Shown here in pieces: positions 41,264-49,546 of a stretch of DNA of 64,000 bases. A program made the position numbers and the translations under genes. This DNA is from Pleurostoma richardsiae. Lineage: Eukaryota; Ascomycota; Sordariomycetes; Calosphaeriales; Pleurostomataceae. Numbering within the stretch: the first letter of the stretch is position 1; the number at the start of each line of letters is the position of its first letter. The notes below the pieces were generated by a model, which worked only from the letters and a program-made list of their open reading frames with translations, had not been told where the DNA came from and did not search any database. Location of the stretch: contig JANBVO010000012.1 of assembly GCA_030052745.1 (NCBI GenBank), forward strand, positions 62,001-126,000, given 5' to 3'.

Positions 41264-44200
41264 ATGCGCTCCAACAGCCTTGCACGCCTTGCCTCGGCTG
41301 GCTTGGCAGCTCTAGCTCTTGCGGAGGACCTCTTGTTCTACGGAAATCTGACCTACAACGAGTACAGGGAGGCCACCTCTGTTCTTGGGCTCAGCGGTAC
41401 GCTGCGCGTCTGGAACCCCCTTGACTTCTCTCGTTAACAGAAGCGACCAGCCCACATTGCCTCCGATGCGGAGTGGCGCAGCATGACCTCGAGCGACTTT
41501 GCGAACTACAAGGCCATCATCATCCCAGACCCCTCGTGTGGATCGCTCAACCAGGTAGCTTTCCTGGACGAGACAAAGTTCGCCTGGGGCCCAGCAATCG
41601 CTGGTAATATCATCCTCATTGGCACTGATCCCACGTTTCACTCGTCGAGTCGACCAGGAGCCTTGACCCTGATTGACGACGCTGTCAGGTTCGCGGCCGC
41701 GGGAAACGGAACTGGTCTCTACTTCTCACTTTCGTGCTACTACGATGCAGTCACTTCATCTACAGTAAACTCCCTGAGCTACTTCGGCACCTTCACCGTG
41801 CGTGGACGGTTGGCTTGCTACAATGACGCCCACATCGTAGCCAATGCCTCAGCTCTCATGGCCCTCGACGACGCTGATCTGAGTAACTGGTCTTGCAGTG
41901 TGCACGAAGTCTTTGCATCCTACCCGACGACGGGCTTGTACGGCTTTGAGCCCCTTGCTATTGCGCGGAACGCCATTGGAGAAGGGGTCCAGACCTTCGC
42001 AGATGGTAGCACCGGAGTTCCCTACATCATCGTGAAGGGCGCAACTCCAGCGGGCTGTGGCAACGGCATATTCGAACCACACTTCGGCGAAGAATGTGAC
42101 GAAGGCCCGATGAATGGCAATCCTGGGAGCGGCTGTTCTTCTTCGTGCAAGTGCACCAATGGAGCAGTTGCCCCGGGTGTCTGCCATCCTGTTCCTGCGA
42201 ACTCGACGTACAATCCCACCTTGTCCACTCCCTCCGTCTCCACGCCTCCCCTGTTCGCGAGCATCACTATGCCTCCCCCATTTACAAGGTCCAGGTGAGT
42301 AGCCTAGTGTATTACCAGAGATCTTTCCTCCGGTGGCTAATAGAACTCAAAGCTCTGTTCCTCTTATTACCTCGTCGTCCCAATTCAGCAATTCGTCACT
42401 GTCGTCCGTTTCAACTCCAGCAGAACCATCTACGACAGTCCTCAGCACCTCCACTTCGTTTATGAACACGTCGTCAGTCATTGCGACTGGTAGCTCTGCT
42501 GCCCCGTCTTCAGTATACCTCACCGCCTCAAACGGCAGTGCTATCCCGACAATGGCTGCATCTTCGGCTCCTCTTCCCACGAATGCAGTATCGTCCCTCA
42601 CTGCAACAGCTCCATGGCATGTCACATTAACACGCCTATCCACCGGCCTTCCAATTGCTTCACCCAGTCTCTTTACATCCGCTTTGCCTAGTATTTTGAA
42701 CGCGACCATTCCTGGCTTGAGCACAGGAACTGGTCCTCCTACAAGTCCCAGTGTTGCCCGTACATCAACTGGGGCTGCCACGGCTTCTGGGCTCCTGTCT
42801 CTCCCATCAGCTAACCAGTCCACAATATTTACCATGGAACCTGTGGCCACCTCCACTGCAGGAATATCTACAGCCTCTAATAATGTCTCGACTGCAAACA
42901 ATCCAGGCAGTGTCACAACAGGTACTCACCCTCAGCTTCCCACGACAATAACAAGCACGTTTGTAACCACGGTAGCAACCAACGAGTCGACAATCCAGAT
43001 AACCGGGCTTGTGACTACCGAGGTGGTCACCATTACTCGAAGCAGTTCGGAATTCCCTCATAGTGAAACTAAAAGCGCCTCGTTCTCTTTGTCAATACCC
43101 CCTCGATTCGGGAACACTACCTCGGTCGCGGGACGGGCAAGCGGAAGCACCTCTGTGCCACCTTCTGCAAGTTCATTCTCTACGCTAAGCTCCTCAGCCT
43201 CACTCAGCACTGCTGTGGCACTCTCAGGTTCTACGAGCAGCACGGGCCCAGAAATCACCCTCATCTTGCCTACCAGAGGAAGTTCATTAACAGGGACGTC
43301 ATCAACGCTTTTATCATTGCCATCATCAACCCCAGTGCAACCTCTCGGTTCTCCAACGATATCGGTCCAGGTTATCCTCAGCACCTCAAATGTTCCCACC
43401 TTCACTGAGAGCAAGCCCGGGACTGTTCTACCAACTGAGTCTACCGCCGTAGTGACATCACGGGCAGGCAGCTCCGTATCCTCTTGTTCAACGAGCCTGC
43501 TGCAGTATTCAGGCTCCACGTATTCATCTACCAGGGAAGCTGTTTCATCAGCCTTGACCTCTGGTCCCGCTGTGGTGTCAGGAGTATCTCCCATATTCGA
43601 AAGTTCGTCACTCGCCGTTCTCAGCGTTGCTCCCTATGAATATCCTTCACTTGGCACTCATCCCTCTAGGAATTCAATATTCACACCAGCCGGCTCCACG
43701 AAATCTGCTCCTATGTCTACGTCATTGGCAGATCTGTCGCAGAGTGCAGGACAGACATTCGCCTCGTCCCATTCAGCTTCCACATGGAGTACAACTCCAC
43801 GCGGTGCGACAAATAGTGGCTTGCCAAGCAGTCTTAGTTTGGCAACTCTGCACTCCTCTCTGCCTTCGACATTACCGGGCCAATCGCAGTCGTCGAGTCC
43901 GGTGCCAGAGCCTTCGAGTGGGATGCCCTCAAGTCCACTCGTGTCATTTACCGCAGAAACAGGGGCTGAATCTGCGTCGGCAGCTCTCTCGTCCATAATA
44001 CTCTCATCCGTGGAAGCGAGCAGGCTCTCTCAAGTGACGAGTGCCTTTCCGGAGTCGAGTATTGCAGCAGGATCACCAACGAGCGCAGGCCCGATCGTAA
44101 CCATACCGGTTTCTCCGGCCCAGAGTTCGTCCCCTGCTGGAGACTGCGATCAGTATGTCGGCGTTGAGATCATTGTCATCGTGGATATAACAGAGGTGTG

Positions 44201-45237
44201 TTCTGATGGCAGCACCGGTGAGCTCATCTATTGCTCCTAGCTCTTGAACTGCCAGATTGACCTCGGTTTAGTTACGGAGATGGTGACTGACGTCGTGTCT
44301 ACTGTGACGCGACCCATTTGCCAGACGCCGGTATCAGGGCACCCGTGCTATCCTTGTGTCTTAGGGACTCCTAGCCCTGGTGATTCCGCGACGGTAACTG
44401 TCGTAAGCTCCGACTCGCTTCCTTGGGCACTGAGAGAGTTACTGACACCATGTGCAGACGTCCTGTCCCGATGCTACGGACTATTTGCCTACGGTGACGG
44501 TTCGGATGTGTAGCAGCTGTTCACCTATCACGCTGACTCCGAACATCCCCAGCTACCAATCTGATGGACCGTGTCTAGCCTGTACGAGTTACGGGCCCTT
44601 TACGAGTCATATCACAGTGACCACCCATGCTTCGGCAACGGTGACGGAGGCCGGCCCAGTTCCACCTTCTCCGATCCAGTCCCTGCCGGGCTCATTGCCG
44701 GGCACGGGGTCTTTACCGCAGACCGCATTGAGCCCTACTACCTACAGGGGAACGGTCGCCTCGTCTGTAATGGTGGGGAGTTCCTATTCATCGGCTATAC
44801 CAGCGATGAGCCCCGAGCCATCGGGCAGCAGTATGCCGTTGATGGGGACCGATTCTGTGCCGAGCTTGCCTGTTCCGACCCTACCGACTTTCCCAGGAAC
44901 GGAAACACGGAGGATGGCCTGGTCGCCGGCCGCGAGCAGCACAAGCATCGGGGCATATACGGAACGGTCTAGTCTGCCACGTTCGTCGAGCATTCTGAGG
45001 GACTTGTCTTCCCGAGCCAGTCCCGCCTCGCCTTCTGCGGCCGCTACATTCATGTCTTCGGGAACCGGTCTCGGAGTGGCAGCAGGTGCAACTCCTCCGC
45101 CCGGTGGGCCATTGGTACCGGCGACTCCGTCGCGTCCACCGTCGATGGCGAGGGCGCCAAAGATGGGAGTCGGGGTCGGCGGGGCCGTACTCGGCTGGAT
45201 GACGGGGAGGGTCGTCTTGGCCCTGGTCAACATCTGA
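41264..45237 (+). CDS. Large Ser/Thr-rich secreted cell-wall/adhesin-like protein with a Cys-rich repeat
   Basis: Five exons: 41264-41396, 41451-42294, 42353-44217, 44272-44402 and 44458-45237, giving 1250 residues. Introns are 54-58 nt and phases agree at all junctions. Residues 1-20 are a signal peptide (MRSNSLARLASAGLAALALA). A globular domain of about 225 residues follows, with several N-glycosylation sequons. Residues 247-279 form one CGNG---E-GEECD-G----GCSSSC-C unit, resembling the DUF4215/myxococcal disulfide-rich repeat. About 650 residues of almost pure Ser/Thr/Pro/Ala/Val come next, probably heavily O-mannosylated. A Cys/Thr segment (VTEMVTDVVSTVTRPIC; CSSCSPITLTPNIPSY) follows, like Thr-rich wall-protein repeats. 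The tail ends in a hydrophobic stretch (MGVGVGGAVLGWMTGRVVLA), suggesting a GPI-attachment signal. Likely surface protein; ligand unknown. Confidence 0.75.
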
Positions 45238-46033
45238 TCATCTACAGTTCCTATTCTTGCACTTGCATCCATTTCCCGCTTCTGTGTCGTAGCTTCGTGT
45301 CTGATCGACAGTACCCAGGGAGCGGTTTCCTTCGCCCAAGCTGCCTCTCTCTCTGTCGTCTGTGTGTATCCGGACCGGGCCAGTCGCGCGGATGGCCGAT
45401 AACGCTGGGAGGCGAGCGGGGTAATGCCGTGTTAATACCTCATGGGAGGAGGAGGAGGTGTAAGCAACCAACCCACAAGAGCTCTTTGATTGCTTGGTGT
45501 CAGCCGATTGTTGCCGTCTTAGACATAACCTAATCACGCATTATCATGTAATCGAGACGCAGGATCGAGACGCCAGCGTTAGCTTCTCGGTCCGTTTCCC
45601 CCCCCTCTCCCCTTCCCTCCTTGATCATATCAGATCACAGTACCGTACCACAGTATGCGTGCGCACTTGGCTGGGCCATCATCGTCGTCGTCCTGCTTGA
45701 TCCCGCCCTCGACGCTTCAAGGTTTTGTGGGCTGTGCTTCCTTGGCTCCGCCCAACTTCGAAGTGGAGAAGCTTTGGCGGTATTAAAAAGGCGGCTGTCT
45801 CCCCCCTCCCCCCCCTTTTCTAGCCGACTCAACACCGACTCTCCCGAGCAACTCGCACATCTCAGCTACCTCCCGCAACCTTCCCGCAACCCCACCATCA
45901 CTTATTGCAACGAGCAGCAGCTCATTGAAAGTATCATAGTCATCCCAACTCTATGGCCGTGTCACCCAGACTAACCATTCCGTAGAGCTACCCCAAGCTC
46001 TGGTAATGATCTCCCGACTCAGCAGAGCCAGCT
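45238..46033. promoter_or_regulatory. Promoter and distal leader of the thiazole synthase gene
   Basis: No gene lies in this interval. A TATA-like TATTAAAAA sits at about 45780-45788, followed by a pyrimidine-rich zone (CTGTCTCCCCCCTCCCC) and a probable leader starting near 45830. A short upstream frame, ATG at 45953 to TAG at 45985 (10 residues), lies in this leader. A branch-site-like ACTAAC and a CGTAG at 45970-45985 could also be an intron end, so the leader structure is uncertain. Confidence 0.45.
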
Positions 46034-46162
46034 ATGGCGTCCTTCAATGGTTATATCGTCCATCATGATCAGTCTTCAGGTAATTATCTGACGCATGAGC
46101 CGGTGCCAATCCCTCCCGCCTTCCGCTGCGCTGTGTCGCCATCCTCTCGCGATGGTGACTGA
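46034..46162 (+). other. Upstream ORF in the thiazole synthase leader
   Basis: ATG at 46034 opens a frame of 42 codons in the unspliced leader, ending in TGA after SSRDGD. The frame crosses the riboswitch-controlled 5' splice site (GT at 46080-46081). If that site is used with the acceptor before 46293, the frame instead runs into the main coding sequence in another phase and overlaps its ATG. In either form it should reduce initiation at ATG 46300. Upstream frames are a known output of fungal TPP-riboswitch splicing. The peptide is probably not itself functional. Confidence 0.5.
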
Positions 46163-46242
46163 AGGGCGATGCGAGGCGTGGGGGAGCGGCTGAGATTATA
46201 CGGCTGAACTTGATCTGGATAATACCAGCGGAGGAATCATGC
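46093..46242 (+). promoter_or_regulatory. TPP (thiamine pyrophosphate) riboswitch aptamer
   Basis: The two conserved halves of the TPP (thi-box) aptamer are present. P1 is GCATGA (46093-46098) with TCATGC (46237-46242). The 5' core CCGGTGCC matches the GGUGC element; CTGAGA at 46190-46195 is the invariant pyrimidine-sensor loop. TGATCTGGATAATACCAGCG (46211-46230) is the P4/P5 pyrophosphate-sensor half. P3 is extended, as in fungi: CCCTCCCGCC (46111-46120) pairs with GGCGTGGGGG (46175-46184) at nine of ten positions, and an inner hairpin GCCATC/GATGGT follows. The aptamer lies inside a leader intron whose likely donor is GTAATT at 46080 and acceptor CCGCAG at 46287-46292, eight bases before the start codon. 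This is the arrangement known for Neurospora NMT1 and Aspergillus thiA, where ligand changes splice choice and represses expression. Confidence 0.93.
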
Positions 46243-46299
46243 AACCCCTCCCTTAAACCCTGTGTGAGGATGGAGGCGTTAACCTGCCGCAGATACACC

Positions 46300-49063
<2,764 letters not shown>

Positions 49064-49546
49064 ATGGCCGAGTCGCAGCCCGCCGCCCCGCCCGCCGCCG
49101 ATGCGGCGTCGCCACTCTTCGCGCACGTCCAGCAGGTCTGGCAGGGTATCAAGTCCAGGTCCGAGATCTACCGGATCCTCCTGGGCGACATCCGCCTGAT
49201 CTCGGCCTCGGAGGGCCGCATTGTCGCCCGGCTGGACATTGCACCGGTGCACATCAATTCCAAGGGCATCTTCCACGGCGCTGTGTCGGCCACCATCGTG
49301 GACTGGGCTGGCGGCATGGCCATCGCCGCGACCGGCCTCGACAAGACGGGCGTGTCCACGGACATCCACGTCGCCTACGTCTCGGCAGCCCGGGCGGGCG
49401 AGGTTCTCGAGATCGAGGCTTGGGTGACCAAGGTGGGCAAGTCGCTGGGCTACACCCAAGTGGAGATCCGGAAGGCTGTTGAGGGCGGTGGTAAGGGGGA
49501 GGTCGTGAGCACGGGGAGTCACACCAAGTACCTGAAGTTCACATGA
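49064..49546 (+). CDS. Hotdog-fold (4HBT) thioesterase, ACOT13/PaaI-like
   Basis: A single exon encodes 160 residues from ATG 49064; the ten codons before it start with a non-ATG codon and are not used. The hotdog signature is VHINSKGIFHGAVSATIVD, containing the helix-start HGA motif (H71) and the catalytic Asp80, followed by DIHVAYVSAARAGE and LEIEAWVTKVGKSLGYTQVE. This matches the thioesterase superfamily member 2 (ACOT13)/PaaI group, which hydrolyses acyl-CoA as a homotetramer. There is no clear targeting signal; a weak N-terminal Ala/Pro-rich region may be disordered. The substrate is unknown. It is convergent with the unknown gene that ends 267 bases downstream. Confidence 0.85.
   Translation: MAESQPAAPPAADAASPLFAHVQQVWQGIKSRSEIYRILLGDIRLISASEGRIVARLDIAPVHINSKGIFHGAVSATIVDWAGGMAIAATGLDKTGVSTDIHVAYVSAARAGEVLEIEAWVTKVGKSLGYTQVEIRKAVEGGGKGEVVSTGSHTKYLKFT

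Follow-up and report, generated by a model that had tools for sequence, protein, structure and literature searches.

The 5' leader of the thiazole synthase gene THI4 very probably contains a fungal Type I TPP riboswitch, a judgement that rests on the sequence and applies to the arrangement as a whole, apart from the detail of how the regulated splice donor is masked. In the window, which is the whole 64,000-nt stretch of Pleurostoma richardsiae DNA analysed here, the aptamer, its location in an intron, the candidate splice sites, the upstream reading frames and the complementarities among them are read directly from the letters; from these we infer the splice choices, the response to TPP and its direction, which are probable. 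In the published definition, a Type I switch occupies a 5' UTR intron with two donors, S1 and S2, placed around a short upstream ORF, S2 being masked at low TPP, and the genes named as carrying it are NMT1, THI4 and transporters (PMC5882874); in this published arrangement TPP favours S2 and expression falls. TPP riboswitches are described as the sole riboswitch class known in eukaryotes (PMC7404189, PMC8786325). As such, the leader described here is unexceptional: one more example, from a new fungal genome, of an established system, the Type I TPP riboswitch.

The host gene is given by the following model:

46300-46486, 46628-47140, 47216-47296, 47466-47570 and 47645-47739, + strand: exons of THI4 thiazole synthase, 326 aa

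Its product matches Pfam Thi4 (E = 2.4e-112), and its best PDB match is Neurospora CyPBP37 (3jsk, 3.7e-156). The model places the aptamer in the 5' UTR intron of THI4. Upstream of the gene lies a 592-aa Ser/Thr-rich ORF (42462-44240, + strand) that by eye resembles a cell-wall or mucin-like protein, and downstream lies a gene of the thioesterase superfamily (4HBT, 1.5e-15; 49064-49546, + strand). A 126-aa open frame runs antisense to the riboswitch and the THI4 start (46044-46424, - strand), probably by chance.

The aptamer itself consists of the following elements:

46093-46242, + strand: TPP aptamer, from an RF00059 match to its 3' part and stems paired by hand
46093-46098 with 46237-46242, + strand: P1, six Watson-Crick pairs
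46099-46102 with 46201-46204, + strand: P2, paired by hand
46105-46190, + strand: extended P3, closing pairs 46105-46107 with 46188-46190, span 86 nt, paired by hand
46209-46211 with 46232-46234, + strand: P4, paired by hand
46215-46218 with 46225-46228, + strand: P5, paired by hand
46219-46224, + strand: L5, the loop of P5

An E-value search matched RF00059 at 46166-46254 with 36.2 bits and E = 8.6e-5. This score lies below the RF00059 gathering cut-off of 54.3 bits, and at gathering thresholds no Rfam family passes anywhere in the 64-kb window; the cut-off is a curation threshold and not a biological feature. The low score is probably due to the length of P3, with the 5' strand of the model placed inside it. 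For fungal aptamers with a P3 longer than ∼60 nt, RF00059 is reported often to fail or to report incompletely (PMC11683625). The conserved core (CTGAGAT, TGAAC and GATCTGGATAATACCAGCG) is intact and all stems P1-P5 are present, with one non-canonical G-G apposition (G46212/G46231) just beyond P4. The core is near identical to that of a bacterial TPP switch on a Desulfobacter MAG contig, the single match in a pattern scan of genome contigs; the same scan of viral contigs gave none. In that bacterial copy (39-66, - strand), the P4-L5-P5 block is identical to the THI4 copy over CTTGATCTGGATAATACCAGCGGA. The earlier note had read an aptamer here by eye and proposed a covariance-model search; the RF00059 match, together with P1, P2, P4 and P5 written out pair by pair, bears this reading out, and by its sequence the riboswitch is real.

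Around the aptamer, the leader offers the following splice sites and upstream frames (a slash marks the exon-intron boundary):

45931-45985, + strand: candidate first leader intron of 55 nt, donor AAA/GTATCA, branch CTAAC at 45971-45975, acceptor GTAG
46003-46008, + strand: candidate distal donor S1, CTG/GTAATG, U1 duplex -5.1 kcal/mol, predicted ON choice
46006-46068, + strand: 20-aa upstream ORF between S1 and S2, from ORF reading
46034-46079, + strand: exonic part of the upstream ORF from ATG 46034, strong context (G at -3 and +4)
46080-46085, + strand: proximal donor S2, CAG/GTAATT (CAG/GTAATTATC), U1 duplex -8.1 kcal/mol, predicted use with TPP bound
46279-46292, + strand: acceptor CAG ending at 46292 with branch-site-like TTAAC at 46279-46283, common to S1 and S2

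The U1 duplexes of the four coding donors in the THI4 gene model range from -1.6 to -10.3 kcal/mol. A strict donor-branch-acceptor pattern occurs 3 times on the + strand of the 64 kb and 14 times on the - strand. With these candidate sites the leader has a GT at 46003, a GT at 46080, four ATGs between them and one AG acceptor at 46292, which is the Type I layout. The resulting leader introns of 213 or 290 nt end before the THI4 start; a Type II switch has a long coding intron of 650-900 nt (PMC5882874) and a far-upstream alpha element, and THI4 does not fit that description.

The choice of donor decides which upstream frames the mRNA would keep. Splicing from S1 (46003-46292) removes the ATGs from 46006 to 46065; if candidate intron 1 is spliced as well, no upstream ATG is left, and if it is not, a 10-aa ORF from ATG 45953 stays and stops 24 nt before THI4. 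Splicing from S2 with intron 1 removed keeps four upstream ATGs (46006, 46034, 46047 and 46065). Translation from 46034 would run, out of frame with THI4, to 55 nt beyond its start, and from 46047 or 46065, also out of frame, to 26 nt beyond it; the frame from 46006 stops 18 nt short of it. The earlier note had named the upstream ATGs at 45953 and 46034 and supposed that splice choice would determine which upstream frame is read. Of these, 46034 matters; 45953 probably plays no part, because it lies inside candidate intron 45931-45985, and the three other ATGs kept by S2 splicing matter as well. Nor had S1 been named, and in the absence of such an alternative donor the freeing of S2 would carry no regulatory meaning.

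Taken together, these features suggest the following switch. At low TPP, RNA near S2 would pair with the aptamer and mask S2, so that the spliceosome would take the distal donor S1 (46003, possibly 45931) with the acceptor at 46292, strip the upstream ATGs and allow THI4 to be translated. With TPP present, the aptamer would close and S2 (46080) would open; the S2-spliced mRNA would then retain the four upstream ATGs, of which 46034, in the strongest context, would overrun the THI4 start and repress THI4. The direction follows from the frames: because the S2-spliced mRNA keeps an overlapping upstream frame, freeing S2 should turn THI4 off. S2 also pairs with U1 better than the S1 candidates do, both here and in the NMT1 leader of the same genome, which fits S2 as the default donor unless it is masked. 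Both the anatomy and the published class support the proposal of the earlier note that the 46080 donor is controlled in the manner of Neurospora NMT1; the 6-nt pairing that it took for the mask probably does not play the leading part.

The mask that we consider likeliest lies on the exon side of S2, together with a hairpin at the donor itself:

46040-46074, + strand: anti-aptamer segment of the exon, complementary to 46202-46235 in the aptamer 3' half
46076-46081 with 46086-46091, + strand: local hairpin holding the GU of S2, -3.7 (16 nt) to -4.4 (22 nt) kcal/mol

The duplex between 46040-46079 and 46200-46236 reaches -28.8 kcal/mol. Among 2000 shuffles each, 5 of the exon and 4 of the aptamer do as well, and so do 7 of 2349 genomic segments taken upstream of every third GT in the window on both strands. 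The corresponding NMT1 exon (1362-1401) pairs with its aptamer half at -27.9 kcal/mol, equalled by 2/2000, 3/2000 and 5/2349, respectively. These 40-nt complementarity tests were framed after the folds had been seen, and the closest approach to an independent test comes from NMT1. Segments upstream of the S1 candidates at 46003 in THI4 and 1346 in NMT1, used as controls, are ordinary (1726 and 1159 of 2000 exon shuffles as good), and the THI4 exon pairs more weakly with the NMT1 aptamer (-21.9, with 37 of 500 exon shuffles and 155 of 2349 segments as good). Complementarity at the proximal donor, as expected of a Type I switch, is thus found beyond chance in the long exon-side match, while the short match at the donor is near chance. 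As for the hairpin, 16 of the 220 GTAA sites of the window, THI4 S2 itself included, are as well hidden as THI4 S2, and 1 of the 220 is as well hidden as the S2 of NMT1.

When the upstream exon is included in the fold, 46040-46074 pairs with the aptamer 3' half and S2 closes in its local hairpin. The exon-aptamer pairing probability averages 0.63-0.71 for folds starting at 46055, 46040 and 46020, with all three ends. From 45990 it is 0.69 (end 46236), 0.62 (end 46292) and 0.31 (end 46260); for starts at 45960, 45930 and 45900 it is 0.68 with end 46236 and 0.03-0.35 with longer ends; from 45860 it is 0.01-0.03, and from 46070 it is 0.00-0.33. In NMT1, the averages are 0.21-0.73 for folds ending at 1571, 0.07-0.58 for starts at 1362, 1372 and 1385 with ends at 1600 or 1630, and 0.00-0.10 for starts at 1250-1350 with the same two ends. 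In these models, the exon-aptamer pairing holds in some folds and not in others, depending on the ends chosen.

Folding places the closed aptamer 4.5-8.9 kcal/mol above the free ensemble, and on these model energies TPP may fall short of bridging that gap when longer contexts are folded. Closing the aptamer leaves the S2 donor in its hairpin (0.77-0.93). With starts from 46040 to 45900, S2 is unpaired with a mean probability of 0.49 when the aptamer is forced and 0.48-0.49 when it is not; for S1, forcing the aptamer brings no consistent change. Because S2 is equally paired in both states, folding alone fails to show that TPP frees S2. The argument that S2 opens with TPP is instead one of competition: the bare hairpin (-3.7 to -4.4 kcal/mol) is weaker than the U1 pairing of S2 (-8.1 kcal/mol). 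We put about even weight on a mask in which exon 46040-46074 pairs with the aptamer 3' half and S2 sits in the local hairpin, rather than on the 6-nt match alone, and the earlier note probably misassigned the switching strand.

The genome holds further TPP aptamers with which the THI4 leader can be compared. Searching the 39.4 Mb in 136 contigs gave three at E ≤ 0.001, in THI4, in NMT1/THI5 and in a transporter-like gene, all of them below gathering (36.2-39 bits); a pattern for the P4-L5-P5 block, allowing at most two mismatches, finds the THI4 and NMT1 copies only. The NMT1/THI5 leader (locus L002, G000:C1:580726-583812) carries a second Type I switch at 1339-1652, and the last coding part of its gene matches Pfam NMT1 (7.1e-49). 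Splicing from its S2 donor (1402) to an acceptor ending at 1630 would leave three upstream ORFs overlapping the start. Abutting that donor is a perfect 9-bp match, 1393-1401 with 1543-1551, a length reached by 8 of 5000 shuffles and 4 of 7055 GT sites. The U1 duplex of its S2 is -6.5 kcal/mol, against -4.3 and -1.5 kcal/mol for the S1 candidates. Paired with the aptamer half, however, these S1 candidates reach raw duplex energies of -12.0 and -9.8 kcal/mol, which counts against the model. The third aptamer (locus L001, G000:C60:388669-391775) lies on the minus strand at 1501-1607. We call its gene transporter-like because of a frame that is hydrophobic by eye and because two elements recall the Type II long-distance switch, one alpha-like (AGCGGTAGC at 1137) and one alpha-prime-like (GCTGCCGCT at 1594), both positions being counted on the reverse complement; a Pfam scan of this frame matched no family.

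The earlier note had assigned the mask to a short complement between the donor and the aptamer:

46083-46088, + strand: ATTATC, complementary to 46218-46223
46218-46223, + strand: GATAAT, comprising 46218, where the 5' strand of P5 ends, and five bases of the six-base loop L5

All the positions it gave were located (donor G at 46080, ATTATC, GATAAT, ATGs at 45953 and 46034, acceptor AG at 46292), and the complement is there, although GATAAT lies in P5/L5 and not in P4. A reading in which L5/P5 (46217-46226) pairs with the start of the intron (46079-46089), the GU of the donor included, and TPP withdraws L5 has real points in its favour: with one bulged A the duplex has 10 pairs (46079-46081 and 46083-46089 with 46217-46226), covers the GU of S2 and reaches -9.6 kcal/mol, stronger than the U1 pairing; its central pairs have probabilities of 0.82 and 0.92 in folds of 46070-46300 and 46070-46260; and P4/P5 of NMT1 are described as pairing with the region beside the proximal donor (PMC5882874). 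Against it stand the chance rates. In the window outside the leader, 10 of 218 GTAA and 93 of 1280 GTA sites reach a match of at least 6 nt, and 6 of 218 and 103 of 1280, respectively, an equal or better energy; when the aptamer half is shuffled, 137 of 2000 versions pair as well with the donor, and 968 of 5000 shuffles of the wider, 24-nt donor region reach at least 6 nt. By itself, the ATTATC/GATAAT complement is near chance (2.8-19% of controls) and is weak evidence, and we rejected the 6-nt match as sufficient evidence on these rates. It also dominates only in short folds: with the end at 46260, the donor-L5 probability is 0.66, 0.92 and 0.98 for starts at 46064, 46070 and 46076, but 0.00-0.02 for nine starts from 46010 to 46058 and 0.00-0.01 for three starts after removal of intron 1, so that the match is gone from predicted folds with more than ∼20 nt of upstream exon. 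NMT1 has no equivalent (-2.6 kcal/mol at the donor, -5.2 kcal/mol for a longer stretch) and pairs on its exon side instead. This short-pairing mask is in our judgement rather unlikely, and the exon-side mask is preferred.

Two other explanations concern whether the leader switches between donors at all. If 46080 were the single donor, TPP could block splicing, and the upstream ATGs of the retained intron would turn the gene off: the retained RNA would hold nine of them, one in frame with THI4. The title of a paper on A. oryzae thiA reportedly refers to a required splicing event, which counts for this explanation, as does the rise of unspliced RNA with thiamine described for Candida DUR31 (PMC5997356). 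Such a switch would make the S2-spliced mRNA the ON form, yet in that mRNA the strong-context upstream ORF overlaps the THI4 start; moreover, a candidate second donor with the right effect is present in both THI4 and NMT1, and we regard intron retention as distinctly improbable. A degenerate relic, an aptamer-like leftover that has lost switching and whose leader intron is spliced constitutively, would agree with the score under Rfam gathering and with the G46212/G46231 irregularity next to P4, but it is hard to square with the intact core and its near identity to the bacterial switch, with the three TPP aptamers kept in the genome and with the intact splice and frame logic. We give a relic scarcely any credence, and a working Type I switch stays the preferred reading.

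Two broader versions of direct pairing were tried and rejected. The aptamer 3' half is not inherently donor-complementary in a U1-like manner: across the 150 GTAA sites used out of 220, the mean pairing of 42 of 60 random 30-mers equals or exceeds its own, and its preference for GTAA over AATG sites is slight (-5.58 vs -5.00). Direct pairing of S1, too, with the aptamer (CTGGTA/TACCAG, -9.4 kcal/mol) is equalled at 10 of 218 GTAA sites and by 230 of 2000 shuffles and was treated as chance; S1 and S2 together are matched as well in 38 of 2000 shuffles.

The finding leaves the general picture of TPP riboswitches unchanged, and it makes the THI4 leader model concrete and testable by naming the donors, the upstream frames and the exon segment that would compete with the aptamer. 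If the anti-aptamer exon is true, it would explain THI4 and NMT1 switching by the same logic despite their differing donor letters. We tentatively suggest, as an idea that will more likely than not prove wrong, that both Type I switches here use a two-part lock, in which the body of the upstream ORF is the anti-aptamer strand, taking up the entire aptamer 3' half when there is no TPP, and the donor GU is held in a small hairpin stacked beside that helix. If so, the upstream ORF sequence would be both a translational repressor and an RNA switch strand, and the donor hairpin would set a threshold: U1 could melt it once TPP had cleared away the exon helix, but not before. The literature titles and abstract openings surveyed contain nothing on an anti-aptamer exon combined with a donor hairpin; that search was not aimed at anti-aptamers, and we claim no absence.

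Among the closest known systems is the TPP riboswitch of Neurospora crassa THI4/CyPBP37 (NCU06110); thiamine is reported to alter the splicing of both NMT1 and THI4 in Neurospora, and the THI4 switch is described as not fully studied (PMC11900860). The N. crassa NMT1 switch (NCU09345, Type I, Mukherjee et al. 2018), whose model is reviewed in PMC7404189, has the same layout of two donors around upstream ORFs and one acceptor, with the aptamer between S2 and the acceptor and a stretch of the riboswitch that pairs close to the second donor. The difference is that in the present THI4 the short donor-L5 match is weak, and the exon-side complement and donor hairpin are better candidates. The NMT1/THI5 leader of the same genome shares the layout, the exon-side complement of the aptamer 3' half, the donor hairpin and the overlapping upstream ORFs; its exon helix reaches right up to the donor (-9 to -1) beside a 4-bp hairpin, whereas the THI4 exon helix begins at -6 beside a 6-bp hairpin. 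The Type II transporter switch of the NCU01977 kind, for which the transporter-like gene with its alpha-like and alpha-prime-like elements is a candidate in this genome, differs from the THI4 layout in that it works by way of an element far from the aptamer within a long coding intron.
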